Source of the DNA: a virus | Strand: one strand, 5' to 3' | Length of the DNA: 35,519 nt | IMG/VR virus record: IMGVR_UViG_3300020405_000009 | Location: 1 to 35,519 of that record | Shown here: one piece after another, positions 541 to 35,519 of the stretch | How the letters are laid out: each line of letters begins with the position of its first letter | Position numbering within the stretch: the stretch's first letter is position 1 | The notes under the pieces: generated by a model | Database searches by the model: none | Told to the model about the DNA's origin: nothing | Seen by the model: the letters and a program-made list of their open reading frames with translations, nothing else | Program-made: the position numbers and the translations under genes

Positions 541-1125
541 ATGTATATTTTGTTTACAGGGGCACCAGGGTCAAAGTGGAGTAGTGTGGTTAAGAATATC
601 TACTGGAGTGATGACGTAGATCACACAGATTATTCTGAACAAAGAACCTACTGGCACGATGCCGATACCCCTGGACGCAAACATCTCATGCACATAGGAG
701 CCTATTGGGATCCTGGAATGGAATTTGACAACGAAGATTGGGATGGTCCTTTCTCTGGCAAAGGAAAACGTATTGTAAAGTCACACACGTTTGCCCATAA
801 CTTAGACACATTGAAAGACAAAGGATATCCAATTGTAATGGTTTACAGAAATGACTATGAATGTTTGGAGTGGTGGAAACTGTGTGGAGAGTTTGGTATC
901 ACCTATCCTAACTATCAATATTTTGAAAACCTTGATAAAATGTGGACACACATACAAAATGAAAACAAAGATACAATGCAGTTCATTAAACATAACAGCG
1001 AACGTATTACAAGAGTTAACGACAACGTTGATCTGTGTAGATTACTCGAAATAAAATTTCCAAACACAAAAGGTAGGATACATAATTACGGTCAGAAAGG
1101 TATCCAAGTTTATGTCTACAAGTAA
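541..1125 (+). CDS. Sulfotransferase-like P-loop protein
   Basis: The 194-residue protein starts with a beta-strand and a loop reading TGAPGSKWSS (residues 6-15), which fits the 5'-phosphosulfate (PAPS) binding loop of sulfotransferases. KRIVKSHTFAHNL (about 76-88) resembles the substrate-side KSH motif, and VMVYRNDYECLEWW (about 99-112) matches the 3'-phosphate binding region around Arg103. Length is short for the family (usually 250-300 residues), as is common for phage versions. The likely role is sulfate transfer to a cytosolic acceptor, but the acceptor cannot be read. It starts directly after the preceding stop and its last 14 bases overlap the 2OG oxygenase gene, so the two are probably translated together. 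A second sulfotransferase-like gene lies at 7845. Fold call is fairly safe, substrate unknown. Confidence 0.6.
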   Translation: MYILFTGAPGSKWSSVVKNIYWSDDVDHTDYSEQRTYWHDADTPGRKHLMHIGAYWDPGMEFDNEDWDGPFSGKGKRIVKSHTFAHNLDTLKDKGYPIVMVYRNDYECLEWWKLCGEFGITYPNYQYFENLDKMWTHIQNENKDTMQFIKHNSERITRVNDNVDLCRLLEIKFPNTKGRIHNYGQKGIQVYVYK

Positions 1126-1768
1126 TTGGGAAGACGCAAAAGCAAGAAGCACCTATCACTTTAACAAATGGCACTGCGACACTGACTGTGTGGAGCACCT
1201 AGGTAGATTCACAGGCGGTTGGCAAACTGAATTAGGTGCAGTGATAAATGACGCTAAACCATTGAACTGGAGCAATAGGCGAGAAGGCACTGGCAGAGAA
1301 AACGTCAACATCGATATTGAAGCCGAAGAAAACGACCTAAAGAAAGCAGGAGCAGATCCTAAGATGACCATATACAGAGGTCTGAAAGATTTTACTAAAT
1401 GTCCAACTCTACAACGAATGACCGATTACTTTGCATTAGATAAAACAAGATCAAAATTGCACATCCAATTTACAGGCGAAGTCCTTAACATGCACATTGA
1501 TAAGTTATATGACCTTGATGCAGATACAGATAAAGTTATTAGAATAATGGTCATGTTACAAGATTGGGAACCAGGACAATTTATCATATATGGAAATCAA
1601 CAATATGACAGATGGAGAGCCGGCGACATACATAAATTTGATTGGCCAAATATTCCTCACGCAACAGCAAATGCCAGTAATAAGCCAAGACCTATGTTGG
1701 TAATTACAGGTGTTGCCACAGCAAAAACTCAAGAAATACTATCAAAATCTATTCAAAAAAAGATTTAG
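1112..1768 (+). CDS. 2OG-Fe(II) oxygenase family protein (copy 1 of 7)
   Basis: The 218-residue protein carries the double-stranded beta-helix signature: HxD iron ligands at His128/Asp130 in LNMHID, a DWEPGQF turn at about 151-157, GD before the last strands, the distal iron ligand His183 in IPHATAN, and Arg193 in KPRPMLVITG to bind 2-oxoglutarate. All residues needed for Fe(II)/2OG chemistry are therefore present. The family hydroxylates or otherwise oxidises proteins, nucleic acids or small molecules; no substrate can be assigned. The C-terminal pattern FDW-x3-PHxTAN-x5-RPxLxITG is shared with the genes at 31003 and 32556, so these three form one subfamily. ATG at 1112 overlaps the sulfotransferase gene by 14 bases. 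A sigma70-like promoter for the next gene begins inside its last codons. Confidence 0.82.
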   Translation: MSTSNWEDAKARSTYHFNKWHCDTDCVEHLGRFTGGWQTELGAVINDAKPLNWSNRREGTGRENVNIDIEAEENDLKKAGADPKMTIYRGLKDFTKCPTLQRMTDYFALDKTRSKLHIQFTGEVLNMHIDKLYDLDADTDKVIRIMVMLQDWEPGQFIIYGNQQYDRWRAGDIHKFDWPNIPHATANASNKPRPMLVITGVATAKTQEILSKSIQKKI

Positions 1769-2458: not shown

Positions 2459-3012
2459 TGACACAGACAGAGCAGTTCAAAAAAGAGTGGATGCCTGACT
2501 ATGATAGATTTCAGTTTAGTGGTTGGAGACTGTTACAGCAATTCAGACCCAAAGACCGTATACTGGACATAGGTTGTGGATACAATCTGTTCAAAGAAAA
2601 ACTGGGTGACCGAGTGTATGGAATTGATCCTGCCAATGATGCCGCTGATGAATTAGTCAGTTGGGAAGACTACAAACCAAAGGCAGAATTCAATGTGTAC
2701 CTTGCCTTGGGCAGTTTGAACTATGGCAGTGAAGAAGTGGTAGAAGCACAAATCAAAAAATTAGCAGATATCACTAAAAAAGGTGACAGAATTTATTGGC
2801 GTCAAAATCCTGGAACAGGTCCACACCCTTGGAAAGACAACGACGACGTAGTGTTTTATCCATGGACCATCGATAAAAACTATGAATGGGCAAAAAAGTA
2901 TGGCTTTTATGTGAAAACCTGCCATCCTGACACAGGTGATAGGATTTATGCGGAGTGGTTTAAGGGCAACGAGTACGAATACTTTGCTTTTTTGACACAG
3001 GATAAAGAGTAA
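2458..3012 (+). CDS. Class I SAM-dependent methyltransferase-like protein (tandem copy B)
   Basis: The 184-residue protein repeats the fold of its upstream neighbour without the long N-terminal extension: motif I ILDIGCG at about 35-41, GIDP with Asp57, LALGSLNYGS in the strand-4 position, and DRIYWRQNPG near strand 5. The C-terminal part, rich in Trp and Tyr (YPWTID, YEWAKKYGF), differs from copy A and may set the substrate. The tandem arrangement with one-base stop/start overlap suggests an old duplication, with either a heterodimer or two related substrates. A cytosolic methyl transfer role follows from the fold; the target is not visible. A 9-base gap separates it from the next small gene. 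Confidence 0.66.
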   Translation: MTQTEQFKKEWMPDYDRFQFSGWRLLQQFRPKDRILDIGCGYNLFKEKLGDRVYGIDPANDAADELVSWEDYKPKAEFNVYLALGSLNYGSEEVVEAQIKKLADITKKGDRIYWRQNPGTGPHPWKDNDDVVFYPWTIDKNYEWAKKYGFYVKTCHPDTGDRIYAEWFKGNEYEYFAFLTQDKE

Positions 3013-5528: not shown

Positions 5529-5534
5529 ATAGTC

Positions 5535-5542
5535 TATAAATA
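5535..5542 (+). promoter_or_regulatory. T4-late-like promoter TATAAATA, leaderless geometry
   Basis: This is a perfect match to the T4 late consensus TATAAATA. With T4 geometry (five bases between the motif and the start of transcription) transcription would begin exactly at the ATG at 5548. The same spacing occurs at 7834 and 21586. Confidence 0.5.
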
Positions 5543-5547
5543 TGTGT

Positions 5548-6393: not shown

Positions 6394-6433
6394 TTTTTCT
6401 TAATAATATCGCTTAATTTACCAATATTACCAC

Positions 6434-6440
6434 TAAATAA
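6434..6440 (+). promoter_or_regulatory. Late-promoter-like TAAATAA upstream of the triple paralogue operon
   Basis: TAAATAA follows the end of the upstream gene in a 108-base gap. If used, it gives a leader of roughly 55-60 bases that includes the hairpin at 6447 and an AGGAGG ribosome site at 6489-6494. A separate TATAAT-like box at 6474-6479 has no matching -35 at normal spacing. Confidence 0.35.
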
Positions 6441-6446
6441 TAGCAA

Positions 6447-6467
6447 TTGACACCGGAGCGGTGTCAG
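6447..6467 (+). other. 5' leader hairpin TGACACC-GGAGC-GGTGTCA
   Basis: A perfect 7-base inverted repeat (6448-6454 with 6460-6466) with a 5-base loop, extended by a T-G pair, sits about 35 bases before the ATG of a gene with a very strong ribosome site. It could stabilise the mRNA 5' end or be an operator. No U-tract follows, so it is not an intrinsic terminator. Confidence 0.5.
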
Positions 6468-6501
6468 GGTCATTATAATCAGAGAAAAAGGAGGATTAAA
6501 A

Positions 6502-6906
6502 ATGGCAACTGAAAACAACACAACATTCGTGGCGGCTGACAACAGTTCTTTACTAGGTAAAGAGTTAGAGTTCATCACGATTGATGCAGGTGAGGAGTTA
6601 GCGAATCACCAAGCAAAAAACGAAACGCAGAACGCGATCGAAAACACGGTCAGAGTATACGGTAACATCGTAGGTGCTGGTCCATTGTTTGATACTAATG
6701 CGTCTAGAACATATATTGTCGAAGGAACAGACATGTTCGTTGGAGCACCAGCAAGTTCAGGTGGAACTTTTACATTCACTGAATCAGGTGCAGACGGATC
6801 ATCTGTTGGAACATTACTAGCGGCTTTAAAAGCACTTGGTACTGTCGACAGTATTGACTTAAACGATTCTGGCACAACTGCTAAGATCGAAAACTTAGAA
6901 CTGTAA
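6502..6906 (+). CDS. Probable abundant virion protein, paralogue 1 of 3
   Basis: The 134-residue acidic protein is rich in Ala, Thr, Gly and Ser, lacks Cys, and is predicted to be mostly beta-strand with one helix. It shares the pattern LEFITID...NIVGAGPLFDTNASRTYIVEGTD with the next two genes, so the three arose by tandem duplication. A textbook AGGAGG at 6489-6494 precedes the ATG by 7 bases. The codon choice is more uniform and richer in GC-ending codons than the neighbours, as expected for a highly expressed product. A terminator closes the group at 7792. A head decoration or tail tube/sheath-associated protein is plausible from composition and expression signals, but the family is not recognised. 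This copy is the most diverged of the three, with a distinct Gly/Ser-rich segment at about 85-105. Confidence 0.72.
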   Translation: MATENNTTFVAADNSSLLGKELEFITIDAGEELANHQAKNETQNAIENTVRVYGNIVGAGPLFDTNASRTYIVEGTDMFVGAPASSGGTFTFTESGADGSSVGTLLAALKALGTVDSIDLNDSGTTAKIENLEL

Positions 6907-6930
6907 TCATTAGTTAAAGGAGAATAAACA

Positions 6931-7353
6931 ATGGCTTACGACGGAACATTACCGGCAGGTGGACACGGAAATTTTGTTTCACCAAACACAGCACACGAGG
7001 CAGATGGTGTTGAAGTAGACTTCATTACTGTTGATTACATTTCAGCGATGAACGCAGAAGTTACTCACCCTCTTGCATCGGCGAACACAGCGGGTCTTCA
7101 ATTATCAATGGAAGCAATCCAAAACCAAGGTGTTAACATCTTGGGTAAAGGCGTTTTGTCAAACTCAAACACAGAACAAACTTACATGGTAAGAAGAGAC
7201 TCTTTAGATACAATTAGTTCTACAACGACAGTGGCGGCAATTCAGGCGGCAGTTAGAGCCTTGAATGCACTAACACCTGACAAAGTTACAGCAACTATAT
7301 CATCTGCAACAGCGGCTGATAGAGATATGGGTGACACTTCAGTTGGAGCGTAA
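6931..7353 (+). CDS. Probable abundant virion protein, paralogue 2 of 3
   Basis: The 140-residue protein shows the family pattern VEVDFITVDYISAMNAEV, then NILGKGVLSNSNTEQTYMVRRDSLDTI, then VRALNAL and VTATISSATA. It has an N-terminal Gly/Pro-rich lead of about 25 residues absent from copy 3. No cysteines, no signal peptide and no membrane helix are visible. AAAGGAG at 6917-6923 gives a strong ribosome site. It is 24 bases downstream of paralogue 1 and 26 bases upstream of paralogue 3, in one transcription unit. The shared core suggests one fold used in related positions of the particle. A non-structural role cannot be excluded from sequence. Confidence 0.72.
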   Translation: MAYDGTLPAGGHGNFVSPNTAHEADGVEVDFITVDYISAMNAEVTHPLASANTAGLQLSMEAIQNQGVNILGKGVLSNSNTEQTYMVRRDSLDTISSTTTVAAIQAAVRALNALTPDKVTATISSATAADRDMGDTSVGA

Positions 7354-7379
7354 TAATAGCAGAATAGGAGGAAACTAAT

Positions 7380-7763
7380 ATGCCAATAAGCAAAAACAAC
7401 TTTAGTCATGTGACTAATACTGAACTAGAAGGTGTAGAAACATCTTCCTTCACTGTGGACTTTATCAACGACATGTCTGCTGAAACTAGCGACTTATCAT
7501 CTGGATCTGCAACAGCAGGTTTAGAGGCAGTAAGAGCAGTTATTGGACAGCACATAAACATCCTTTCAGAAGGACCGTTAGTTGATTCAAACACACAGAA
7601 AACTTACACAGTTAGAACAGACTCTCTAGGTACTTTGATATCAGGTGGAACGTTACAAACGGACATCAGAGCGTTGAACGGTGCAGGTAGCGTTACAGCC
7701 ACTATCAGTAGTGCAACAGTAACAGCAACTGACATCGGTATCTTAACTGCGGCGGCTGTATAA
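7380..7763 (+). CDS. Probable abundant virion protein, paralogue 3 of 3
   Basis: The 127-residue protein is closest to paralogue 2: VETSSFTVDFINDMSAET, HINILSEGPLVDSNTQKTYTVRTDSLGTL, DIRALNGAG and VTATISSATVTATDIG line up in order. AGGAGG at 7366-7371 is followed by the ATG at 7380. The gene is followed by an intrinsic terminator about 30 bases after the stop, so the operon 6502-7763 is a closed unit. Role as for its siblings: probably structural and abundant, by inference from ribosome sites, codon use and duplication. Function unknown. Confidence 0.72.
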   Translation: MPISKNNFSHVTNTELEGVETSSFTVDFINDMSAETSDLSSGSATAGLEAVRAVIGQHINILSEGPLVDSNTQKTYTVRTDSLGTLISGGTLQTDIRALNGAGSVTATISSATVTATDIGILTAAAV

Positions 7764-7791
7764 TAATTCAGTCTTCGGTAAGTAGTTTACC

Positions 7792-7830
7792 AAAGGGCGG
7801 ATCTTTAATTAGGTTCGCCCTTTTTTCTTT
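7792..7830 (+). terminator. Intrinsic terminator after the triple paralogue operon
   Basis: GGGCGGATC (7795-7803) pairs with GGTTCGCCC (7812-7820), with two G-U pairs and an 8-base loop. Flanking AAA/TTT extends the stem, and TTTTTTCTTT follows. This is the clearest rho-independent terminator in the window. Confidence 0.85.
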
Positions 7831-7833
7831 GCG

Positions 7834-7839
7834 TAAATA
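7834..7839 (+). promoter_or_regulatory. Late-promoter-like TAAATA, leaderless geometry
   Basis: The 14-base string TAAATAATCACATG runs from this site through the start codon at 7845 and is repeated exactly at 21587-21600 before the PAAR gene. It lies directly after a terminator, so a promoter is expected here. The start of transcription predicted from T4 late geometry is the A of the ATG. Confidence 0.5.
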
Positions 7840-7844
7840 ATCAC

Positions 7845-8528
7845 ATGCCAACACATCTAGACGAAGCCATTAAAATAATCCTTAGTGCAGATTCCAAGTT
7901 ACGAGACAAAACTCCTAGGATATATCAACTGCCAAAAGAAGAACACATGCCAAAGGCATTCACAAATCTAAAACGTATGCGTTTTTTGAACCATGATGTC
8001 AGTGCAGGCAGAAACATCAAACGTTGGCTATGGCGAGATTACAATCCTGAGATAATATTACAACAGCCACCTTTTGACAAGTACGAAGATCAAAGTGAAA
8101 TATTCACACTAATAAGAAATCCAGCAGACCGTTGGTGGTCCGGTATCAAAGACATGTTTTATTTCATGCCATGGTACACTTGGTGGACGAATGAAAAAAT
8201 AATGACACAATGGCCTCACTTCACACGTGGCACGCTTAGATTACACGATGTTATGCAAGAAGTCAAACCACAACATCTTATCAAATGTGACAGCGGACTC
8301 AATGACAGAATTATTAATTTTGCAAAAAAACATGGTCTACTTTGCTATGGCAACATTCCGCACGAGCGAGCACTAAGACATTCTAAGCCTGACGTCAAAA
8401 AACTAGAAGACAAAGGAGTACAAACACTCAAAGCATGGCTACGAGACAATCCACAAAGGCAAAAACAGTTAGATGAATATCTAGAGCCTGACTGGCAATA
8501 TTGGAGCCAAGTTGAGTACCAAGACTAA
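7845..8528 (+). CDS. Sulfotransferase-family-like protein
   Basis: The 227-residue protein contains IFTLIRNPADRWWSGIKDM (about 86-104), which fits the 3'-phosphoadenosine binding motif RxPxxRxxS of sulfotransferases (Arg91, Arg96, Ser99). The C-terminal part has conserved-looking Trp/Tyr and Lys/Arg residues. The N-terminal P-loop usually seen in sulfotransferases is not obvious, so the protein may be a diverged or nonclassical member. It would transfer sulfate in the cytosol to an unknown acceptor. It begins a new transcription unit after the terminator and its stop overlaps the next start as TAATG. Confidence 0.55.
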   Translation: MPTHLDEAIKIILSADSKLRDKTPRIYQLPKEEHMPKAFTNLKRMRFLNHDVSAGRNIKRWLWRDYNPEIILQQPPFDKYEDQSEIFTLIRNPADRWWSGIKDMFYFMPWYTWWTNEKIMTQWPHFTRGTLRLHDVMQEVKPQHLIKCDSGLNDRIINFAKKHGLLCYGNIPHERALRHSKPDVKKLEDKGVQTLKAWLRDNPQRQKQLDEYLEPDWQYWSQVEYQD

Positions 8529-11309: not shown

Positions 11310-12302
11310 ATGTCTAGCAATTACATCACGGTTGATGGGATCAATCATATCAATGCTGAACTAAGCAATTATTGTAATGCCGCTTGTCCGATGTGTGCAA
11401 GATTTGACTCTGAACAAAATTTAAATAAGGACATTACCAACAACAGTCATACAACTCTCGAAGTGATCAAAAATAAAATTGGGCCAAGAGTCATCAAAAA
11501 TTTATGGCGATTTAGATCGTGCGGTAATGTTGGCGATGGCACTATGAATCCCGAGTGTGCAGAAATCTATGATTATGTGAAATCTGTCAATCAAAAAGTC
11601 GACCTATCAATTAACACAAATGGCGGAGCACGTAACAAAGAATTTTACAAAAGTTTGGCTGAAATTGGTGTGAGAGTAATTTTTTCCATTGACGGATTAG
11701 AAGACACTAATCACCTGTATAGAAGAAATGTTAAATGGAGCAAACTGTTTGAAAACGTTGAAAGTTTTATAAATGCAGGAGGTACTGCCCATTGGGATTT
11801 TTTGGTGTTCAAACACAATCAGCATCAGATAGATACCGCTGAACAGTTGAGCAAAAAGTTAGGATTTAGTAGATTCAATAAGAAAGCCACAACAAGATGG
11901 GACGACTTTGATGCAAAAGGCACATGGTTGCAAAGAGACAAAATACAAATTGATTCATATGCTCTTGAGAAACCTGAAAATAAAAAGATAATAGATGTGG
12001 ATAATAAAAGAGACGTGAAAGTAGAGCATGTTAAAGTTAAAAAAATAAAGTGCCATTCATTTTCAAATAATAACGTTGAAATATTTTTACACGCCAACGG
12101 GTATGTGACTCCATGCTGTTGGTTAGGAGATTTAAATATACATGGCCCTCAAGTGCTTAGAAAATTTTATGCAGGTGCAAATATAAATTTAAGATCATTA
12201 GAAGAAATATTAGGAGGCACTTACTTTAAATTTTTAGCACAATCTACACAAGGTAGAGTTACTGCATTAAGAACTTGTGAAAACGTATGCGGAATACAAT
12301 AA
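11310..12302 (+). CDS. Radical SAM protein with cysteine-rich C-terminus (SPASM/twitch-like)
   Basis: The 330-residue protein has the radical SAM cluster motif CxxxCxxC in YCNAACPMC (Cys22, 26, 29), preceded by a beta-strand (INAELSN). It also has the expected downstream features SINTNGGARN and VIFSIDGLEDTNHLYR. The C-terminal part has CHSF, a CC pair in GYVTPCCWLGD, and CENVCG, spaced like ligands for an auxiliary Fe-S cluster in SPASM/twitch proteins. Such enzymes often modify peptides or carry out difficult C-H chemistry; the substrate is not visible. Stop and start of the next gene overlap as TAATG, and that gene also encodes a radical SAM protein, so they are probably partners. Confidence 0.8.
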   Translation: MSSNYITVDGINHINAELSNYCNAACPMCARFDSEQNLNKDITNNSHTTLEVIKNKIGPRVIKNLWRFRSCGNVGDGTMNPECAEIYDYVKSVNQKVDLSINTNGGARNKEFYKSLAEIGVRVIFSIDGLEDTNHLYRRNVKWSKLFENVESFINAGGTAHWDFLVFKHNQHQIDTAEQLSKKLGFSRFNKKATTRWDDFDAKGTWLQRDKIQIDSYALEKPENKKIIDVDNKRDVKVEHVKVKKIKCHSFSNNNVEIFLHANGYVTPCCWLGDLNIHGPQVLRKFYAGANINLRSLEEILGGTYFKFLAQSTQGRVTALRTCENVCGIQ

Positions 12303-13582
12303 TGAGTAAGACTTATTGTGCAAAACTTTGGAATCATCAATACATTCACATGAGTGGTAGCCTTAGATATTGTTGTGCTACAATGCATGATATCATAGAT
12401 AAAAACAGCAATCGATTACACATCAATAACAACTCATTAAAAAATACTTGGAACTCCAATGATGTTAGACAAACAAGATTAAAAATGATACGTGGCGAAC
12501 CAATATCAGCCTGTGTTAAGTGTGTTGATCAAGAGGCCAGAGGTTACAAGTCTATGCGTGAAACACACAACATGGAAAAAAACTTTGCTTTGACCAAACA
12601 GGATGGTTCAGTTGATATTATGCCTACAACAATGGAATTACATCTTGGCAATCTTTGCAATCTAAAATGTAAAATGTGTGGACAACAATACTCAAACCAA
12701 ATAGGAAAAGAACTTCTTGAAATAGGAAAAGACAACAAAGATTTTCTTGATTGGGTTTATAAAGAAAGCGGTAATGTTAATATATGGACCAACAATTTAT
12801 CTGTAGAATACAGATGGTTTCAAAATCCAAAAATCAAAAACAAGTTATTTGAATACGTTTCTAAGAACATTAGGAAACTTACAGTAATTGGTGGAGAGCC
12901 AACTGTAATTCCAGAGTTTTGGGAACTGTTTGAATACTTAGAACAAAGAGATACGCTAAAAAACTTGTCTATCACTCTTACCACAAATCTTACAAATGTA
13001 AATCCTAACTTAACAAAGTGGTTACCTAAATTAAAAAAGTGGACAGTATGGGCAAGTGTTGATGGAATTGGTGAACGAACCGAATACATAAGATATCCTA
13101 GCAACTTTAAAAAAATTTGTGAAAACTTACAGTTTTATAAAAACTTATTAGGAACCAACGGTGATATTACATTAAGTCCAGCAATTCAATTATTGAACAT
13201 AGACCAGTTAGATGATATTATAAAATGGTGGTTAGAATTTAGTGATGGTAATTTTGAAAAGCAGTTTGGCATTTCCTGGATGGCACAAGTTCATTATCCA
13301 ACAATCTGTAACTATGATATATTACCTAAAGAGTATAAAGATAAGATAGCAAATAAGTTAGAACAGTCAAGTGAACAATTTAAAAAGTTTTCAACTATAA
13401 CAAAATATTACAACAACCAGATAACAAACTTAAAACAAAACATTATGTCCAACGAAAAGAAAATCCACTTTCAAAAAGCATTTATAAGATACAACGACAC
13501 ACAAGACAAACACAGAGGAAAAAATACTTGGCGAAGATTGTTGCCAGATTTAGAACAAGCCTTGACACAAAACCTTAGTTAA
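12302..13582 (+). CDS. Twitch-type radical SAM protein
   Basis: The 426-residue protein has an unusual N-terminal cysteine-rich region (Cys6, a CC pair at 24-25, CVKC at 71-74) placed before the radical SAM motif CNLKCKMC at 119-126. GGEPTVIPEFW (the GGEP motif), TLTTNLTNVNP and WASVDGIGERTEYIRYP follow in the canonical order. The frame is open further upstream, but ATG 12302 is chosen because it forms a one-base TAATG overlap with the upstream gene. Placing the auxiliary-cluster cysteines before the core resembles twitch radical SAM proteins that I recall from marine T4-like phages. The C-terminus is basic and helical. Product and substrate are unknown; coupling with the preceding radical SAM gene suggests sequential or paired modification of one target. 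Its 3' end carries a consensus promoter for the next gene. Confidence 0.8.
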   Translation: MSKTYCAKLWNHQYIHMSGSLRYCCATMHDIIDKNSNRLHINNNSLKNTWNSNDVRQTRLKMIRGEPISACVKCVDQEARGYKSMRETHNMEKNFALTKQDGSVDIMPTTMELHLGNLCNLKCKMCGQQYSNQIGKELLEIGKDNKDFLDWVYKESGNVNIWTNNLSVEYRWFQNPKIKNKLFEYVSKNIRKLTVIGGEPTVIPEFWELFEYLEQRDTLKNLSITLTTNLTNVNPNLTKWLPKLKKWTVWASVDGIGERTEYIRYPSNFKKICENLQFYKNLLGTNGDITLSPAIQLLNIDQLDDIIKWWLEFSDGNFEKQFGISWMAQVHYPTICNYDILPKEYKDKIANKLEQSSEQFKKFSTITKYYNNQITNLKQNIMSNEKKIHFQKAFIRYNDTQDKHRGKNTWRRLLPDLEQALTQNLS

Positions 13583-15937: not shown

Positions 15938-16618
15938 ATGTTATTATTAAACGGTTGCAGTTTTGCCGACAGGTGGGTACCTTCTCAAAATTTTCTTCAG
16001 TCCATCGATTGCTCTAAAACAATGAACATATCAATATTGGGTGGCAGTTTTCAAAGGACACTAAGAACATCAATTGAATACTGTGCGTCTTTTGGTAATC
16101 CAAAAATGGCCATCATTCCAATCACGTTGGCCAGTAGATGGGAACTAGCATTAGGTAAAGAAGATGTGATCATTGACGGCACCTGGTACAGTATGCAACA
16201 TCCTGAATATATAGATTTCGATAAATTGGACAAATCCATTTCCAAAGACAAAGTCAAACAGTTAATTGAAAATTATTATGGTGTGATTCCTAATGTGCGA
16301 TCTACTTGGGACAAGATGTTTACAGAAATTATTGCATTGGCATCTTTTTTTGAATCACAAAATATAAAATATTTGTTTTTTGATATGTGCAACAACTTTG
16401 ATCATAAACATTTAGCGGGTTATAAAGGATTTGAAAAACTAGATCTAATTAACAATAACAAAAATATTATTAATCTTTTTGAATTTTGTGGTAATAAGTT
16501 CATGTATGATACATTATCACCTGTTGAACAAAATAAAATAGATCCATACATGCATCATCATCATGCAACTGAGTATCTTGCGTTAGAAAAGTACCTAATA
16601 GACTACTTAAATCGCTAG
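15938..16618 (+). CDS. SGNH/GDSL hydrolase-like protein
   Basis: The 226-residue protein opens LLLNGCSFADRW, matching block I of a phage/bacterial SGNH-like group in which the serine lies in a GCSFT-like motif (Ser8). SILGGSFQRTLRTS at about 32-45 would be the Gly block, and DPYMHHHHATEYLALEKYLIDYL near the C-terminus fits the block V Asp-x-x-His. The fold is probably a small esterase/deacetylase-like alpha/beta protein acting on a glycan or ester, by family analogy. It lies 8 bases after the tail fibre gene, so it may be co-expressed with it and act on the same surface polymer or on fibre modification. Substrate unknown. Confidence 0.55.
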   Translation: MLLLNGCSFADRWVPSQNFLQSIDCSKTMNISILGGSFQRTLRTSIEYCASFGNPKMAIIPITLASRWELALGKEDVIIDGTWYSMQHPEYIDFDKLDKSISKDKVKQLIENYYGVIPNVRSTWDKMFTEIIALASFFESQNIKYLFFDMCNNFDHKHLAGYKGFEKLDLINNNKNIINLFEFCGNKFMYDTLSPVEQNKIDPYMHHHHATEYLALEKYLIDYLNR

Positions 16619-23529: not shown

Positions 23530-23572
23530 AATTTAGCACAGACTTGACACAATGTCAATATTATGCTTAAAT
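23530..23572. promoter_or_regulatory. Divergent promoter pair with back-to-back -35 boxes
   Basis: The palindrome TTGACA-CAA-TGTCAA (23544-23558) provides a -35 box for each strand. Rightward: TTGACA 23544-23549, 17 bases, TTAAAT 23567-23572, predicting a start near 23579 just before the tmRNA acceptor piece. Leftward: TTGACA (23553-23558 complement), 17 bases, TAAATT (23530-23535 complement), predicting transcription into the gene starting at 23522. Confidence 0.6.
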
Positions 23573-23579
23573 ATTCTTG

Positions 23580-23872
23580 TAGACGTTGAAACATTTGGAA
23601 TAAGCGTTAGGGACGTCGGGGCAGTACCGACCACCTCCACCAATACTAGGATGGGTGGCTTACGTAATCCCTTTCGGGGGTGAACCAGGATCGACCGATG
23701 TGTAAAGAGATGTGGAGTTTACCCAGTTGGAACGAGGTAACGGCCAGTTTTTAAATGCAAACACAAAAGCATTAGGATTTGCTGACCTAACAGTTGGCAT
23801 GTCTGAAATGAGATTAGCGGCCTAGTCCAATGATCTCGGGGTTTGGCAACACCTGGCAACAGAAGTTGCCTT
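23580..23872 (+). ncRNA. ssrA: Circularly permuted (two-piece) tmRNA
   Basis: The acceptor half comes first: GGAC, then a T arm with stem GTCGG/CCGAC (23615-23619 and 23627-23631) and loop GGCAGTA, the 3' acceptor strand CACCTCC (23632-23638), discriminator A and encoded CCA (to 23642). After a 33-base spacer comes the 5' acceptor strand GGGGGTG (23676-23682), which pairs fully with CACCTCC (one G-U), then AACCAGGATCGACC, the conserved tmRNA D-region. The tag reading frame starts at GCA 23757 and encodes 22 residues beginning ANTKALGFAD and ending EMRLAA, stop TAG 23823-23825. The -LAA end is the classic degradation signal. A GGCAAC/GTTGCC hairpin (23855-23870) ends the gene. This gene order is the permuted form known from alphaproteobacteria and some cyanobacteria. 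It would rescue stalled ribosomes with SmpB. Outer boundaries are approximate. Confidence 0.88.
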
Positions 23873-23885
23873 AATAAGTATTATT

Positions 23886-24122
23886 ATGTGGAAAGTATTC
23901 GCAATTGTTTGTATATTAGTCCAAGATCCAATGGGCATAGAGCGGCAAGACTGTCAATTGTTTCATGAGACCAAAGACAATAGATTCGAAACAGAAGAAT
24001 TGTGTTTGATACAAGCAGAGAAAAAAGCAGAAGAAATGTTTTATGGATTTACCACATACAATATTCCGTTTGAAGCCATGCAATTTGGCTGTGATCAAGA
24101 AACCCAGATACAGGAAAATTAG
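23886..24122 (+). CDS. Small protein with hydrophobic N-terminus, unknown function
   Basis: The 78-residue protein opens MWKVFAIVCILVQDPMG, a short hydrophobic start that could be a weak signal or anchor, followed by a soluble acidic part with Cys residues (QDCQLFHET, ELCLIQAEKKAEEM, FGCDQETQ). The spaced cysteines would suit disulfides if exported to the periplasm. ATG 23886 lies 14 bases after the tmRNA hairpin, without a strong ribosome site. I recall similar small proteins in marine T4-like phages, function unknown. Confidence 0.58.
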   Translation: MWKVFAIVCILVQDPMGIERQDCQLFHETKDNRFETEELCLIQAEKKAEEMFYGFTTYNIPFEAMQFGCDQETQIQEN

Positions 24123-27297: not shown

Positions 27298-28110
27298 ATG
27301 CAAGTAAAAAGAAAGTTACGACCTAGCGAAATAAATGCCAATTACGGGGATCTACCAAAAGATATAAACTCATATATCAATGACAGTGTTATGGCCAAAC
27401 AGCCAGAAATAGATCTTTGGCAGTTTATGCAGACAAGACCTGACAAGTTGTATGAAGAATGGGCATACGAAGTTGACTCGGACACCACCACAACATATGA
27501 CGCCAAACCTTTTACAAGATTAGATTTAAATAAAAAAGACTTTTTTGACTATATGAGAGATCACAAAGACACTTGTCAAAAAAAGTTTTACGAACGTAGA
27601 CCTTATCATAATGGAAGAAGTGAACTGACAGAAAACTTTCCTATGCAATGTGGTTACAACTCAGGTAACACAATCGAATACAATTGGGGATTGTATGGAA
27701 ACAGCAATGAAGAAATCAAAGAAATGTTGGGATCAAGAAAAGTTTGGGAGGATCAAATTGGAATAGATTATGACACCGCATTGATTAGATTATTGTGCTA
27801 TATGCCAGGACAAATTTTGCCATGGCACGTGGACAATCTCGGAAACTGGTGCAGAAATAACAAAAATCTTAATCCTAACATAGACACAAGAATTTGTGAT
27901 TTAGGACCTATCAAAAGATATCTAGTAATGATTACTGATTGGCATTGGGGACATGTGATACAATTTGAAAACAGTTACTTTCCTAATTACAAAAGTGGAG
28001 ATGTGTTTGATCTACCTATACCAAGGCCACACTGCTCTGCTAACATGGGAATGAGGATCAAGTTAACATGTAGTATCAGTGGTGCACAGACACACGACTA
28101 TACACAATGA
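27298..28110 (+). CDS. 2OG-Fe(II) oxygenase family protein (copy 2 of 7)
   Basis: The 270-residue protein has LLCYMPGQILPWHVDN with iron ligands His177/Asp179, then VMITDWHWGHVIQF, KSGDVFDLP, the distal His245 in RPHCSANMG, and Arg253 or Lys255 as 2OG anchor in MRIKLTCSISG. About 160 N-terminal residues precede the core and include a conserved-looking TIEYNWGLYG, also found as TTESNWGLDP in the gene at 28819. It is a complete candidate dioxygenase. Start is ATG 27298 with GGAGAAG upstream; an earlier TTG would run through the promoter. It overlaps the next oxygenase gene by four bases (ATGA), starting a six-gene coupled operon to 31719. Substrate unknown. Confidence 0.82.
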   Translation: MQVKRKLRPSEINANYGDLPKDINSYINDSVMAKQPEIDLWQFMQTRPDKLYEEWAYEVDSDTTTTYDAKPFTRLDLNKKDFFDYMRDHKDTCQKKFYERRPYHNGRSELTENFPMQCGYNSGNTIEYNWGLYGNSNEEIKEMLGSRKVWEDQIGIDYDTALIRLLCYMPGQILPWHVDNLGNWCRNNKNLNPNIDTRICDLGPIKRYLVMITDWHWGHVIQFENSYFPNYKSGDVFDLPIPRPHCSANMGMRIKLTCSISGAQTHDYTQ

Positions 28111-28829
28111 AACTAAAGCATCCAATATCAGAGACACGTCTTGATCCAAAGGACGCAGTGCCAAACGAAATATTAGAACAATATCCATGGCATTGGAATC
28201 CTATGGAACAGAATCATACAGATGCAAATCATTTTATGAAAAACATAGACTTTGATTGGAAAGGTCTAGGTGATTGGGCAATTCAACAATGCAATACACA
28301 TCTTACACCTCAAAAATATTGGCGTTTTGATTATGAACAAGATGCCATATATCATGCTAAAGAAAATGTTAACAACATGCCTATCAAGGAACAGGCATTG
28401 ATGGCATTTAAAAATAATACGCATAGTGAACACAACAGCCAATATTTTAAAATTGCCAACGAAGAATTTAAACACTGGCTAGGTCCTTTACAAGATATGT
28501 TTCCAAACTTGAAAAAAGAAAAGATGGGTATTAGTCTTTTTGTGCAACCACCAGGCCACACTATGTTTACTCACGTTGATACTTATAGTAGTTTTATTAG
28601 AAGGACAGGTGATGCCAAAGCAGACTACACTGTCTTAAGGCGTTACATGGCGTTTGTGAGAGATTGGGACTTTGGACATTTTTTCCATTATGGAAATCAT
28701 TGTTTCAGTCAATGGCGATCAGGAGACTGTTGGGATCTTGTGCCTGGCGTGTACCATGGTAGTGCTAATGCAGGAGTCAATCCTAAAATTACCATACACT
28801 GGAGTGGCGAATTGAAAGATGTTGGATAA
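28107..28829 (+). CDS. 2OG-Fe(II) oxygenase family protein (copy 3 of 7)
   Basis: The 240-residue protein has ISLFVQPPGHTMFTHVDTY with ligands His156/Asp158, then AFVRDWDFGHFFHYG, WRSGDCWDLVPGVYHGSANAG with the distal His217, and NPKITIHWSG with Lys227 in place of the usual Arg. It belongs with copies 2 and 4 in the subfamily GD-x7-H-x-SAN-x-G...K-x-T. The N-terminal 130 residues are charged and Trp-rich and may bind the substrate. ATGA overlap with copy 2 and an 11-base overlap with copy 4 imply coordinated translation. Whether Lys can anchor 2OG here is uncertain, though Lys is used by some family members. Confidence 0.8.
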   Translation: MKLKHPISETRLDPKDAVPNEILEQYPWHWNPMEQNHTDANHFMKNIDFDWKGLGDWAIQQCNTHLTPQKYWRFDYEQDAIYHAKENVNNMPIKEQALMAFKNNTHSEHNSQYFKIANEEFKHWLGPLQDMFPNLKKEKMGISLFVQPPGHTMFTHVDTYSSFIRRTGDAKADYTVLRRYMAFVRDWDFGHFFHYGNHCFSQWRSGDCWDLVPGVYHGSANAGVNPKITIHWSGELKDVG

Positions 28830-29439
28830 TCAATATTTCAAAAAATTTCTTAAAGAAAAAAATGTAGACTTGCATCAGCACATTGATATCAATAAATTAT
28901 GTAATCTAGATATTGAGCCAAGTGAATTTGAAAAATTTGCCAACAAACACAGGCAAGAAGCCACAGTAAAGTGGTATCATCCAAGACCGTTTTTAAATGC
29001 TGAAACAAATGAACAAGCCATCAATGCCAATTGGATTGGCTACAACGAGCACAATACTACAGAAAGCAATTGGGGACTAGACCCAAAGCACAACCAAACG
29101 CTGAAACAGATGATAGGCAAAGATAACTTTATTAAAATGGGAATTGATCCAAACGAAACATTATTGAGACTGTTAGAGTATATGCCTGGGCATTGTTTAC
29201 CTTTACACTACGACGGCTTTGAAGGATTCAAAAGATTATACGGCAAGGATGACAGCACTAGATTTTTTGTGGCCATAAGTGAATGGGATTGGGGTCACGT
29301 GTTACAGGTACACGATAATATAATATCTAACTGGCAACCTGGGGATACATACATTATTCCAGCAGGTGTATGTCATGCCAGTGCTAATTTTGGCATCAGT
29401 GCAAAATACACTTTGACTGTGACAGGAGTGAGAAAATGA
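28819..29439 (+). CDS. 2OG-Fe(II) oxygenase family protein (copy 4 of 7)
   Basis: The 206-residue protein has LLRLLEYMPGHCLPLHYDGF with ligands His130/Asp132, AISEWDWGHVLQVHDN, WQPGDTYIIPAGVCHASANFG with the distal His186, and Lys196 in SAKYTLTVTG. It is closest to copy 2: both have NxTxESNWGL/NTIEYNWGL and YMPG before the HxD motif. The short N-terminus makes it the most compact member. Its start overlaps copy 3 by 11 bases and its stop overlaps the aminotransferase start by four bases, so it is physically tied to sugar or amine chemistry. Confidence 0.8.
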   Translation: MLDNQYFKKFLKEKNVDLHQHIDINKLCNLDIEPSEFEKFANKHRQEATVKWYHPRPFLNAETNEQAINANWIGYNEHNTTESNWGLDPKHNQTLKQMIGKDNFIKMGIDPNETLLRLLEYMPGHCLPLHYDGFEGFKRLYGKDDSTRFFVAISEWDWGHVLQVHDNIISNWQPGDTYIIPAGVCHASANFGISAKYTLTVTGVRK

Positions 29440-30485
29440 TTTCAAATGTAGCAGGCGATAGACTATACACACAGATCAAAGAAAGATTATTGGATGCTTA
29501 TGATCATATTCACAGTACTGGCAATTGGATAGATGACAAGTACACAAATTCAGTTGAACAAAAACTTAAACTAATTACAGGCAGACGTCATGCCAAACTT
29601 GTTACCTCAGGCACAACTGCAATCCAAGTTGCTTTATTGGCGTGGGAACTGATTGATAAAAAAATTGCCTGTGTGAATTATAGTTACATTGCAAGTGCCA
29701 ATCAAGCCGCCATGCTGAATCATGTTGATTTTTTTGATGTGGATGCAAATGCACTACTTGACATTTCAACAGAATTCAATCAAGATGCAGTCATACCTGT
29801 GTCGTTGTATGGCAACACCATTGACTATGACAATTTGACCACAAGTGTAAGTACCAAGGTTGTAGTTGACTGTGCTCAAAGTCTAGGTGCCAAGTACAAA
29901 GGTAAACCAGATGGCAGTTTTGGTGACGTGTCAGTTTTTAGTTTTGCCAGAAATAAACCTGTGCCCACGGCAGGCACACATGGTGCTTTGGTTTGGGATG
30001 ACGACACAATGACTCACAAAATTGAAGCAGTATCTACTAATGGAAAATTAGGAAGAAACTCACCAATAAGTTCATTTGGCACCAACGGAACACCATATGA
30101 ATTACAAGCCGCTTGGATTGATATAGGCCTTGATCATATGGAATCATGGCAACAGAAAAGAAAACAGATACACGATTACTACCGTGATGCGTTTCATGAT
30201 GTGCCTTGTAGAATTATTGAACCAAACAAGCACTGTGAATCAAATAATCATAAATTTGCCATGGTGGTGGATAGCCGAGATGATTTATTTGATCATCTAC
30301 AAAAAAACAATATACAGGCTCTAAAACATTACACAGACAATTTTGCAAACTATTTTGGTTCTGATAAAACTTTTACTAAAACAGATTTATTGTGTAAATC
30401 AATTATAACACTTCCCAACCATGCGTGGATGACTGACGCGGAAGTAGACACAGTAGCAAACAAAGTTATAGAATTTTACAAATGA
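29436..30485 (+). CDS. DegT/DnrJ/EryC1/StrS-family PLP aminotransferase
   Basis: The 349-residue protein has VTSGTTAIQVALLAW (phosphate-binding SGTxA motif, about 56-70), VVVDCAQSLGAKYKG with the PLP-contacting Asp145 and Gln148, and FGDVSVFSFARNKPVPTAGTHGAL with Lys174 in the Schiff-base position. The order and spacing fit the sugar aminotransferase family. Such enzymes convert keto-sugars (usually nucleotide-linked) to amino-sugars. The C-terminal domain is shorter than the usual 370-390 total. It is linked by ATGA overlaps to a 2OG oxygenase before and an SDR/epimerase after, so the three probably serve one pathway. The substrate is not determined; a non-sugar amine route is possible. Confidence 0.85.
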   Translation: MISNVAGDRLYTQIKERLLDAYDHIHSTGNWIDDKYTNSVEQKLKLITGRRHAKLVTSGTTAIQVALLAWELIDKKIACVNYSYIASANQAAMLNHVDFFDVDANALLDISTEFNQDAVIPVSLYGNTIDYDNLTTSVSTKVVVDCAQSLGAKYKGKPDGSFGDVSVFSFARNKPVPTAGTHGALVWDDDTMTHKIEAVSTNGKLGRNSPISSFGTNGTPYELQAAWIDIGLDHMESWQQKRKQIHDYYRDAFHDVPCRIIEPNKHCESNNHKFAMVVDSRDDLFDHLQKNNIQALKHYTDNFANYFGSDKTFTKTDLLCKSIITLPNHAWMTDAEVDTVANKVIEFYK

Positions 30486-31018
30486 AAAAAATTGCAGTCA
30501 TAGGACACGACGGAACACTAGGATCAGAATTGATGAAACAGTCAAATACTGTGGCTGTGCCATGGATGTTTGAAAACGATCAAAAAATAATTGCTGATTG
30601 GTTTGAGTCTAATCATGACGTGGACACTGTATGGCATGTGGCAAGGACCTGTAGAAAACAAGGAACAAGACGCGACTCTGATACTTTTCTCATAGAACAA
30701 AAAGGTATGTTGGATCTAATGCAAACTAGAGCAAGACACTGTAGGTTTGTGTATGCTTCAAGCAAGATAGTATATGGTCTTGGCGGAGTAAGTGACAATC
30801 CAGAAGAAGTGTTGCCAGTTCATGATGTGGCCAAGCATTTTCTTGATAGCAAGGTGGGTATTCATAACTGTCCAGAATGGCAAAAAACCCGGCAGGTAAA
30901 CATAAATGATCTCGACACTAAGCGAGCCATATATGCCTGTACAAAATTGAGTAATGAACAAATCATACAAAAATATTGTTCCAATTACAAAATTATTAGA
31001 ATATGGGACATAGCATAG
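30482..31018 (+). CDS. Minimal NAD(P)-dependent epimerase/dehydratase-like SDR
   Basis: The 178-residue protein has the Rossmann motif GHDGTLG (residues 8-14), VDTVWHVART where extended SDRs have the strand-4 motif, FVYASSKIVYG with Ser93/Ser94, and the catalytic pair Tyr151-x3-Lys155 in YACTKLSNEQ. It stops about 20 residues after the YxxxK motif, whereas extended SDRs continue for another 100-150 residues carrying the substrate-binding domain. The next gene starts 16 bases before the stop, so the shortness looks designed and not due to cloning of an edge. RmlD/GalE-like sugar chemistry is the natural guess. It could be an active minimal form, work with a partner, or be a truncated relic. 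Confidence 0.7.
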   Translation: MKKIAVIGHDGTLGSELMKQSNTVAVPWMFENDQKIIADWFESNHDVDTVWHVARTCRKQGTRRDSDTFLIEQKGMLDLMQTRARHCRFVYASSKIVYGLGGVSDNPEEVLPVHDVAKHFLDSKVGIHNCPEWQKTRQVNINDLDTKRAIYACTKLSNEQIIQKYCSNYKIIRIWDIA

Positions 31019-31719
31019 ATTATAGAAAACTTTACCAAAAAGTTGAAACAGTTAACGATTGGCTGGATCTATTGAAGAATCCAGAGTTCAATTGGACTGA
31101 GTGTATGTTGAGTTTGTCAAATTACGAACCAGGGGATTACAGTTTTGAAAAAATAGGCAGTATAGGCGGCTCGTGGAATTTCCAGCAGGATAATTTGATA
31201 TTAAAAGCATCTCAAAGTTTAGACAATAATGATTATGCAGACAAATCAGAAATAGATTTTAAAAAACAACACAATTTTGATCACGGGTATATGGAATACG
31301 AGTCAGACCAATTGGCACACTCCATTGCCAAGGCATTGGGTTTTACAGATTACAAGGCCGCCATCAACGTACAAGAGCCTGGCAGTATCAAAAACCTACA
31401 CGCGGATTCATTGAATGGTTGGTTCAAAGATGTCGACAAATATAAGAATGTCAAGTTGGACAAGCATCTCAAACAACCAGTGGGCACCCAAGGATTGCAT
31501 CGTGTGTTTATTGCATTGACAGACTGGCAACCAGGCTGGATGTGGCAGTTTGGAGTTGATCATTGGACCAATTGGAAAAAAGGTGATGTCATTAATTTCG
31601 ATTGGCGTAACGTTCCGCACTGCACCGCAAATGCTGGTTACTCCTCGAGACCCATTTTGAAAATCACAGGCATCAGTACATTTATTGATAATAATAAGCA
31701 CTTTAATATTGCACTATAA
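31003..31719 (+). CDS. 2OG-Fe(II) oxygenase family protein (copy 5 of 7)
   Basis: The 238-residue protein has NVQEPGSIKNLHADSLNGW with ligands His133/Asp135, FIALTDWQPGWMWQFG, WKKGDVINFDWRNVPHCTANAG with the distal His206, and SSRPILKITG with Arg216 as 2OG anchor. It pairs with the gene at 32556: both share KKQHNFD/HQQHNFG, a long insert with KLxQP, TNWKKGDV and FDWR. It overlaps the SDR gene by 16 bases and ends the coupled operon that began at 27298. A TATAAATA late-promoter box overlaps its stop codon, so the next gene is transcribed separately. Substrate unknown. Confidence 0.82.
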   Translation: MGHSIDYRKLYQKVETVNDWLDLLKNPEFNWTECMLSLSNYEPGDYSFEKIGSIGGSWNFQQDNLILKASQSLDNNDYADKSEIDFKKQHNFDHGYMEYESDQLAHSIAKALGFTDYKAAINVQEPGSIKNLHADSLNGWFKDVDKYKNVKLDKHLKQPVGTQGLHRVFIALTDWQPGWMWQFGVDHWTNWKKGDVINFDWRNVPHCTANAGYSSRPILKITGISTFIDNNKHFNIAL

Positions 31720-32555: not shown

Positions 32556-33302
32556 ATGCCTGATTCATACACACAAGATAAATGGAACGCAATCAACACA
32601 GTGCAAGATTTTTTATCATTTTGTGAAGATCCGCAGTGTGATACTCAAAATTTTTTTACAAGTTTAATTGATATCAACCAAAGTAGTTTTTGGCACGCAG
32701 GCAATGTTGACTTTGACATAGACATAGAGGATTTAATATCACAGACACCTGAGATAAAAGCAAGTGAATTGTCACTAACTACCATGCATCCTGCAGAATT
32801 AAAATATCATCAACAACATAATTTTGGTAACGGATATGACAGGATAAAACCAAACGCAGACGTCTTAAAAATTGTGTCAGCATTAGGATTTAAACAAAAT
32901 GCAAGTGTTTGGGTAAACAATCAACCCCCAGGGTCGTTGATGGGTAGGCATGTAGATAGTATCAGTTGTTTCACCTATGAAAACTCTAATGAAGAACAGA
33001 TTCTTAGAATGCAATATGATAAAAAATTACGGCAACCATCTTTACTAAAACCAATTTGGAGATGTTTTGTAGCACTAGCAGATTGGCGTCCAGGACAGAT
33101 TGTAAATTTTGAACCTAATTTTTGGACCAACTGGAAAAAAGGAGATGTTGTGTTTTTTGATTGGCGACATACTCCGCATAGCACAGCAAATTGTAGTGAC
33201 CAAGCACGACCATTCTTGAAAATCACAGGAGTCATTGAAAAAGACGATTGGGTAATTGAATCCAAAACAACCAAGCCATACCAGTTTTCAATACATGAAT
33301 AA
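32556..33302 (+). CDS. 2OG-Fe(II) oxygenase family protein (copy 7 of 7)
   Basis: The 248-residue protein has VWVNNQPPGSLMGRHVDSIS with ligands His132/Asp134, FVALADWRPGQIVNFE, TNWKKGDVVFFDWRHTPHSTAN with the distal His208, and ARPFLKITG with Arg218. It is the clear sister of copy 5 (31003), sharing length, insert position and the TNWKKGDV-FDWR-PHxTAN-RPxLKITG block, and more distantly of copy 1 (1112). It has its own promoter with the overlapping palindrome. The next gene, a PP-loop ATPase, begins 8 bases before its stop, so the two form a coupled pair. Substrate unknown. Confidence 0.82.
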   Translation: MPDSYTQDKWNAINTVQDFLSFCEDPQCDTQNFFTSLIDINQSSFWHAGNVDFDIDIEDLISQTPEIKASELSLTTMHPAELKYHQQHNFGNGYDRIKPNADVLKIVSALGFKQNASVWVNNQPPGSLMGRHVDSISCFTYENSNEEQILRMQYDKKLRQPSLLKPIWRCFVALADWRPGQIVNFEPNFWTNWKKGDVVFFDWRHTPHSTANCSDQARPFLKITGVIEKDDWVIESKTTKPYQFSIHE

Positions 33303-34425
33303 CATTAATGACCAGTGGTGGTATGAAGTCAATGGACAAAGGTTTGACAACAAACTAATTGCAATAAAAAATTCTAATGAAAAAACACAGCCGGTACATT
33401 TTCATTGCCCAAAAAATTACTACACACAAGACTTCTCCAAAAAACCTACAGACACTCTGGACGTATTATTAAAACAACAAGCACAAAAAATACGCGATAC
33501 ATACAAAACTGTTAGATTATACTTCTCGGGTGGGTCAGACAGTTATCTTGTGTTGAAAACATTTATTGATAATAAAATACCAATTGACGAAATAATTTGT
33601 TTGAAAAGTGGATTAGGTGAATCAGACTTTGAAATAACAGATTATGGAATTCCATTACTCCACAAACACAAAGAGTCATTACGTCAAACTAAAATTACAA
33701 TCAGTGAGCCATCTATCAAAGATTACTATGACTATTACCACACAGGTGTTACAGACAAAAAAATTGAAATTGGTTATTTCACCTATCACTCATATCTACG
33801 ATTGCATCAACAACATGAAATATGGAACGAACAAAATATTAATTCAGAAACTGCAAACATAAGAGGCTTTGACAAACCAAAAGTAATTAAAGTAGGTGAG
33901 GACTGGTACACATATTTTGTTGATGTGGAAATTGAACCTATGGGTCATATGATAAATTTTTTCAGTATTGATCCTAACATACAGAGCAAACAAGCACACA
34001 TGCTTTTGGAAAAAATTCACACAATAAATTATGAGAAAGACACAGATATCTGGAATAATCAAAAATTTTGGAATGAAAGCATTGGCAGAAATTTCACAAA
34101 CGACTTACCCTTGAAAAATATATTTTTAGGTGCAAAAAATAATTTTGTAAACCACAACAACAATCAATTTTATTATTACAACACAAAAGAAAAATTTGCC
34201 CTCGAACATGTTAAGTCTCGTTCAAGTGATATCCTTGACATGTATGCGCATAGCCTAGATGAACTAAATCAGTATACTACAAACACATGGTGGAACAACA
34301 ATAAACCTGAATTAGGCACCATTGGTATATTTTCAGAATTTTTTTGTCTAACCAAAAAATCAGTTAAAACTGTAGACGAATTATATCCAGATGGCTTTAA
34401 AAGTCAATGGAATAGCGGTTTTTAA
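33295..34425 (+). CDS. PP-loop (N-type ATP pyrophosphatase) family protein
   Basis: From ATG 33295 (8-base overlap with the oxygenase gene) the 376-residue protein has VRLYFSGGSDSYLVLKTFID at about 73-92. SGGSDS (78-83) is the pyrophosphate-binding loop of the asparagine synthetase C-domain/QueC/GuaA superfamily. No glutaminase domain is fused, and no cysteine cluster of tRNA-thiolation enzymes is visible. The remainder is aromatic and Asn-rich. Members adenylate a carboxyl or carbonyl group so that an amine or sulfur can attack it; the substrate cannot be named. In context it may carry out an amidation or ligation step next to oxygenase chemistry. A frame extension to 33256 is less likely, since it lies within the upstream gene. 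Confidence 0.72.
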   Translation: MNNINDQWWYEVNGQRFDNKLIAIKNSNEKTQPVHFHCPKNYYTQDFSKKPTDTLDVLLKQQAQKIRDTYKTVRLYFSGGSDSYLVLKTFIDNKIPIDEIICLKSGLGESDFEITDYGIPLLHKHKESLRQTKITISEPSIKDYYDYYHTGVTDKKIEIGYFTYHSYLRLHQQHEIWNEQNINSETANIRGFDKPKVIKVGEDWYTYFVDVEIEPMGHMINFFSIDPNIQSKQAHMLLEKIHTINYEKDTDIWNNQKFWNESIGRNFTNDLPLKNIFLGAKNNFVNHNNNQFYYYNTKEKFALEHVKSRSSDILDMYAHSLDELNQYTTNTWWNNNKPELGTIGIFSEFFCLTKKSVKTVDELYPDGFKSQWNSGF

Positions 34426-34902: not shown

Positions 34903-35519
34903 ATGCAGAAAAATACATTTAACAATCTACGTTTAATATGTTTCACAGTGGTTTTAATAACCATCGTTATTGCTTCTGCATTTTTAGTTGGCACATTTTA
35001 TCCGAACAAGTGGACTACTTTAAATATTCAAAAGGATTTTCATAAAAAAGAAGTAAAAGAAGTCATATATTTAGGTTTGGTACAACCTGAATTTGAATAC
35101 ACAGACAAAGCCAGTTTTATTACAGCAACAGGCAAGTGTATTGATTATCTTAACTTCACCACAGACAGATTGAGCAGAGTGCCCACATCCATGATTATTG
35201 CCATGGCCGGCGTTGAATCTGGTTGGGGTACCAGTAGATTTGCCAACGAAGGTAATGCACTTTTTGGTGTAAGAACTTGGGATGAAACAGTACCACAGAT
35301 CAAACCACTGGATCTACCTAATGCAGATTTTGGTGTCAAAAAATACAAAACGAAATGTGACAGTGTCAAAGACATGGTTCGTATATTGAATTCACATCCT
35401 GCCTATGAAAAATTCAGAGAAGAACGAGAAAAACAAATAGATGCAGGTAAATGGGAGTACAAGGCGTTGTTAAATGGCATAACTGCATGGAGTACCAACC
35501 CAAAATACAAAGATATTAT
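34903..35519 (+). CDS. Membrane-anchored Bax/glucosaminidase-type murein hydrolase (3' truncated)
   Basis: The reading frame opens at ATG 34903 and runs off the end of the window (205 visible residues). Residues 9-32 form one hydrophobic helix after a short basic start, an N-terminal anchor or uncleaved signal. From about 90 the sequence reads RVPTSMIIAMAGVESGWGTSRFANEGNALFGVRTWDE. This is the glucosaminidase (GH73-like)/Bax signature, with Glu105 as likely catalytic acid in VESGWG and the NxLFGxR motif. It would cleave peptidoglycan in the periplasm, for lysis or envelope remodelling. It starts 8 bases after the hairpin arm of the preceding gene, without a strong ribosome site. Confidence 0.8.
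   Translation, partial: MQKNTFNNLRLICFTVVLITIVIASAFLVGTFYPNKWTTLNIQKDFHKKEVKEVIYLGLVQPEFEYTDKASFITATGKCIDYLNFTTDRLSRVPTSMIIAMAGVESGWGTSRFANEGNALFGVRTWDETVPQIKPLDLPNADFGVKKYKTKCDSVKDMVRILNSHPAYEKFREEREKQIDAGKWEYKALLNGITAWSTNPKYKDI

Follow-up and report, generated by a model that had tools for sequence, protein, structure and literature searches.

The window examined here, the whole 35,519-nt stretch of the viral record IMGVR_UViG_3300020405_000009, carries on its + strand an island of predicted metabolic genes in which three 2-oxoglutarate (2OG) oxygenases (OG1, OG2 and OG3) are followed by a DegT-family aminotransferase (AT), a minimal short-chain dehydrogenase/reductase (SDR) and a fourth oxygenase, OG4 (Table 1). 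Along this row, successive genes overlap by 4, 11, 4, 4 and 16 bases. An initial annotation, made from the sequence alone, had given these six + strand genes and their overlaps correctly to the base and had taken them for a single coupled unit; the coupling is supported, the overlapping junctions being kept also in the closest related contig, IMGVR_UViG_3300007513_002727 (hereafter L016). The six genes stand as listed there, but the row does not end with them: it runs past position 31719 with two more oxygenases (OG5 and OG6) and a gene for a PP-loop ATPase-like protein, so that the island holds six oxygenases, and a seventh paralogue, OG0, lies outside it.

In the rest of the window, only 5 of 28 same-strand junctions overlap, and five overlaps in a row are thus improbable by chance (hypergeometric probability ~0.001, by our own post hoc arithmetic). 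A clear Shine-Dalgarno motif is missing before OG2, SDR and OG4, consistent with coupling by termination-reinitiation, and GGAG or AGGAG-like sites precede OG3, AT and OG5. For OG1, the best start is the ATG at 27298, with GGAG upstream, whereas an in-frame GTG at 27259 has no such site. When compared with L016, the rate of nonsynonymous versus synonymous substitution (dN/dS) is 0.04-0.07 for OG1, OG2, OG3 and SDR and 0.14 for AT, with dS near saturation and OG4 not computable. These low values argue that the reading frames are real, and the five genes are under purifying selection.

By motif and predicted fold, the OG proteins are Fe(II)/2OG oxygenases of a divergent lineage. Built from the marine viral contigs, the family counts 97 proteins over 19 stretches; without two near-identical stretches, 91 proteins from 17 remain. 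The HxD motif and the distal histidine are present in all 97, and a lysine or arginine ten residues after that histidine (H+10) in 84, including all seven window copies; the iron- and 2OG-binding sites therefore look usable throughout the window, as the initial annotation had supposed. Among the 13 proteins without a basic residue at H+10, two have an arginine at +11 and one is cut by a contig end. OG1-OG4 and OG6 gave no naming match in Pfam or PHROGs, and OG5 gave weak 2OG matches, the Asp_Arg_Hydrox profile reaching E=0.0017 and 18.6 bits versus a curated cut-off of 22.6. At E<=0.01, the PF05118 profile matched 1 of 59 scanned members, a set that leaves out the OG5 group, and the other 58 matched no Pfam 2OG family. 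The AlphaFold model of OG2, the oxygenase that we modelled (pLDDT 93.1), is a double-stranded beta-helix that matches known 2OG oxygenases at E about 1e-5, although the best whole-chain TM score is only about 0.45-0.5. Its solved matches comprise PHD, AspH, proline cis-4-hydroxylase, fungal and nucleoside-antibiotic 2OG oxygenases and also plain cupins, and its best viral matches are uncharacterised proteins of uncultured phages. In the tree, OG1 to OG6 and further groups of orthologs separate from each other, each common to several contigs, which indicates that the paralogues predate these phages; tandem duplication within this genome is rejected as their origin. A role in anti-phage defence is rejected as well, since PADLOC matched no defence system, apart from its generic 2OG model on OG5.

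The AT matches DegT/DnrJ/EryC1 (PF01041) at E=3.5e-51, and its pyridoxal phosphate lysine is in place. Its nearest solved relatives by profile are 7b0d, 8e75, QdtB and WbpE, which assigns it, on sequence grounds, to the class of nucleotide-sugar/cyclitol aminotransferases; against the named DegT equivalogs (WecE, PseC, ArnB, DesI) it scores at best about 107 bits versus a curated 420, and thus misses the cut-off. Pfam likewise confirmed the SDR call, with an epimerase-type core at E=4.5e-08. The AlphaFold model of the SDR (pLDDT 83) matches only the cores of RmlD and threonine dehydrogenase. With RmlD and GalE-like threonine dehydrogenases it shares the Rossmann core, GxxGxxG and YxxxK, but it differs from them in the CRKxxxRRD loop, unique to it, and in its length: in all nine distinct members the chain stops at RIWD after the sixth strand, and the C-terminal substrate-binding domain is absent. 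A split or frameshifted gene is rejected on account of this common end. The minimal SDR occurs in ten further contigs, every one of which carries these oxygenases. Of the PP-loop genes neighbouring the oxygenases, 17 of 18 have the GGxDS motif, and the family has a weak match to LarE; one related island contains in addition a separate protein of the Asn_synthase family.

We compared the window with 18 IMG/VR contigs, two of them near-identical to a third, leaving 17 distinct stretches. The exact order of the six genes, and indeed of all nine, is found in one other contig, L016, which has about 80% DNA identity to the window in OG1-OG3 and SDR. At the protein level, AT is 66% identical between the two and its neighbours 84-87%, with OG6 at 54% and the PP-loop protein at 37%; the lower similarity of these three is a sign of replacement. 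As only 2 of the 17 distinct stretches have this exact order, a fixed six-gene operon is rejected. The gene order proposed initially is shared in part: the cassette is present in other marine viral contigs, so that synteny is not confined to this one, but AT and OG4 are exchangeable and some genes do move independently. Counting the window, nine stretches have OG1-OG2-OG3 consecutively, the genes overlapping or nearly abutting; in three of the nine, a 42-47% relative takes the OG3 slot, and contig L027 has the order OG2-OG3-OG1. Across islands, the OG1-OG2-OG3 core, OG5, the PP-loop enzyme and the minimal SDR recur, whereas AT, OG4 and OG6 vary, being exchanged for other genes or lost. Among the closest kin of the window, most stretches have the island between p26504 and p34391/p34903, at a site that stays the same while its content varies. 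No bacterial source emerged when 84,980 genomes were scanned for patterns from the OG1 and AT alignments, a method that reaches close relatives only, and a literature search found nothing on this cassette.

The islands may also hold TctA, TctC-like, DctP or OpuAC proteins, a radical SAM protein and an arylmalonate-decarboxylase-like protein. Phage-borne TctA permeases and adjoining proteins are found at L032:5721-7010 and 7107-7982, L045:4948-6273 and 6372-7241, L034:709-1560 and G001:C1:24251-25513, and in G015 and G017. Secreted proteins beside some of the TctA genes look solute-binding-like by eye, with no Pfam match, and binding proteins are located inside islands in L023 (DctP, 12138) and L027 (OpuAC, 9426).

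We tentatively suggest, as a reading that falls short of being probable, that this T4-like marine phage carries a modular, exchangeable biosynthetic (tailoring) island whose enzymes act on a precursor made by the host. The combination of oxygenases, DegT enzyme and SDR as in a pathway, already proposed in the initial annotation, is supported. Taking as established the order and coupling of the genes, the conserved residues of their active sites, the oxygenase fold, purifying selection and modular exchange, we infer the chemical steps as follows. OG1-OG2-OG3, translated as a coupled run, would hydroxylate an amino-acid-, cyclitol- or sugar-like compound of the host. The minimal SDR, with intact NAD-binding and Tyr/Lys motifs, would oxidise one hydroxyl to a ketone or reduce a ketone, and the DegT enzyme, where present, would convert the ketone to an amine; jointly, oxygenase, SDR and AT would thereby achieve a net conversion of C-H to C-NH2. 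The PP-loop protein may then use ATP to activate a carboxyl or similar group, joining or capping the product, and swapping AT, OG4, OG6 or the PP-loop gene between phages would alter that product. In its sharpest form, as an exchangeable phage pathway that aminates unactivated carbons of a host metabolite through a relay of oxygenase, minimal SDR and DegT enzyme, from a previously undescribed phage 2OG oxygenase lineage, the proposal is unlikely.

Several observations weigh against a common pathway. The domain in which such enzymes normally hold their substrate is missing from the SDR. AT is next to an oxygenase in 9 of 11 cases, which is not significant given the oxygenase density (p=0.09 by within-island shuffling), and we did not use this pairing as functional evidence; AT is moreover missing from L021-L026, with the same oxygenase core, and from L034 and L045, with parts of it. 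The island has no constant carrier protein, glycosyltransferase or exporter, and the intermixed solute-binding proteins and TctA would fit a collection of independent genes equally well.

As to the substrate, the self-sufficient amino-sugar route that had been envisaged is not borne out. In 10 related contigs of 25-115 kb, which are incomplete, and whose missing functions host genes could supply, there is no match to PF00483 (NTP_transferase) or PF00535 (Glycos_transf_2), and PF01370 matches the truncated SDR core only, with no full-length epimerase/dehydratase. This makes a host-made compound likelier as substrate than a nucleoside diphosphate (NDP)-sugar made by the phage, which is unlikely. 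The same absences, in contigs that are fragments, count against decoration of a surface glycan, and no glycosyltransferase was recognised in the islands. According to this possible but doubtful account, a sugar on the host lipopolysaccharide or capsule, or on the virion, would be modified for receptor masking or against superinfection, with NDP-keto-sugars from the host, oxygenases that hydroxylate or oxidise and a DegT enzyme that aminates. The DegT clade is nearest to nucleotide-sugar aminotransferases, the SDR resembles RmlD, exchangeable content fits a diversity of receptor types, and a possible glycosyltransferase was noticed by eye at 4506-5621 (-). We keep this account in consideration because, among cultured phages, the closest relative of OG1 is encoded in a cluster rich in glycosyltransferases, that of Synechococcus phage S-SCSM2R.

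The island could instead be a hotspot of auxiliary metabolic genes that work independently, with each oxygenase acting on a different host metabolite beside transporters (TctA, TctC-like, DctP, OpuAC) and overlaps that reflect no more than the compactness of phage genomes. 2OG oxygenases are indeed common auxiliary genes of pelagiphages (PMC11561400), and content is mixed from contig to contig. Although we give this explanation limited credence, it stays under consideration because the adjacency of AT and oxygenases is not above chance; the ordered OG1-OG2-OG3 run in nine stretches and the restriction of the minimal SDR to contigs with these oxygenases speak against it. Quite unlikely is modification of a macromolecule, in which the oxygenases would hydroxylate tRNA, DNA or phage structural proteins (as in AspH/PHD or ALKBH8) with a contribution of the PP-loop enzyme: it draws on the fold matches to PHD and AspH, a weak ALKBH8 profile match (E=2e-4 over about 80 residues) and the frequency of PP-loop enzymes in tRNA modification together with the LarE match, but neither a nucleic-acid-binding domain nor genes of TET/JBP or phage DNA-hypermodification type were noticed, and DegT and SDR would be left unexplained.

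Table 1. Genes of the oxygenase island and other features of the window
Feature	Position	Strand	Remarks
OG1, 2OG oxygenase, 270 aa	27298..28110	+	HVD...H...K; core gene
OG2, 2OG oxygenase, 240 aa	28107..28829	+	H156xD158...H217...K227; AlphaFold pLDDT 93; core gene
OG3, 2OG oxygenase, 206 aa	28819..29439	+	H130xD132...H186...K196; core gene
AT, DegT/DnrJ/EryC1 aminotransferase, 349 aa	29436..30485	+	K174 in SFxxNK motif, invariant among aligned homologues; exchangeable
Minimal SDR, 178 aa	30482..31018	+	GxxGxLG, YxSxK, YxxxK, invariant CRKxxxRRD, C-terminal RIWD; without substrate domain
OG4, 2OG oxygenase, 238 aa	31003..31719	+	Exchangeable
OG5, 2OG oxygenase, 249 aa	31756..32505	+	Weak Pfam 2OG-FeII_Oxy_3 and Asp_Arg_Hydrox, PADLOC 2OG; best conserved island gene
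OG6, 2OG oxygenase, 248 aa	32556..33302	+	Paralogue of OG4
PP-loop ATPase-like protein	33256..34425	+	SGGSDS; start uncertain, TTG 33256 or ATG 33295
OG0, distant 2OG oxygenase paralogue	1112..1768	+	Outside island
Conserved island flank	34903-35517		Cut by window end; Bax/FlgJ-like glucosaminidase domain, N-terminal membrane segment
Cytochrome b of bc1 complex, 416 aa	20317-21567	+	Full-length, PEWY motif, directly after nrdB
Transfer-messenger RNA	23540-23916	+	Two-piece, alphaproteobacterial type (Rfam RF01849, 108 bits; ARAGORN tmRNA*)
Radical SAM gene pair	11310-12302 and 12287-13582		Overlapping

The source is a T4-like marine phage, and its host is probably alphaproteobacterial. NrdA has its nearest relatives in cyanophages and Pelagibacter phage Mosig, the protein at 3321-4535 in HTVC008M; a search for the major capsid protein gp23 gave no signal, nor did its controls. 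The cytochrome b matches alphaproteobacterial solved structures at E about 1e-135 and has copies, 83-84% identical, in three other viral contigs (L052, L053 and G002:C1:19742-20989). The collection searched held no comparable phage record apart from a partial Helicobacter match, and a literature search found nothing on phage cytochrome b, which is possibly of more interest than the oxygenase island itself. Scattered outside the island are, by eye, sulfotransferase-like genes, tandem methyltransferases and the possible glycosyltransferase (541-1125, 7845-8528, 1802-3012, 4506-5621 (-)), with only a weak CmoB/UbiG match at 1802-2458. SGNH-hydrolase-like proteins of GCS(F/Y) type, also by eye, are found at L030:9303-10334, at 15938-16618 in the window and at L054:7280-8020 (Mosig); those of L030 and Mosig lie close to DegT genes.

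That marine T4-like phages carry 2OG oxygenases is known, and what they are for is a standing question. In the islands described here, an entire divergent lineage of them occurs as tandem genes, linked to a single dehydrogenase core and exchanged in cassette form, and the defined gene set (OG1-OG2-OG3, SDR, OG5 and PP-loop) lends itself to joint expression, making the role of phage oxygenases directly testable. The lineage has the double-stranded beta-helix fold, the HxD...H motif and the basic H+10 residue of the hydroxylase group of PF05118, PHD and proline cis-4-hydroxylase, with a weak profile link (E=0.0017 for OG5, E=1.8e-4 for Mosig_00081), but differs from it in its tandem expansion to six paralogues per island. 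It shares enzyme class and setting with the phrog_61 2OG-Fe(II) oxygenases of cyanophages and pelagiphages, yet no window protein studied matches that family. Metabolic islands of this sort are already known in T4-like marine phages. Pelagibacter phage Mosig EXVC030M (MT647606, genes 74-97) likewise combines overlapping genes, an Asp_Arg_Hydrox-type oxygenase and a DegT aminotransferase homologous to AT (E=2e-64), but radical SAM, nitroreductase and carbamoyltransferase genes form the basis of its island, and the stretch read has no OG1-OG2-OG3 core, no PP-loop relative and, instead of the minimal SDR, a 242-aa epimerase. S-SCSM2R (PQ898602, genes 302-310) has a member of the window oxygenase family (E=1e-30) and a DegT fragment, but the oxygenase is single and lies among glycosyltransferases and an inosamine amidinotransferase, in a cluster that also includes a radical SAM gene. 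The new elements of the island described here are the tandem genes of a divergent oxygenase lineage, the minimal SDR and the modular way in which both are exchanged.

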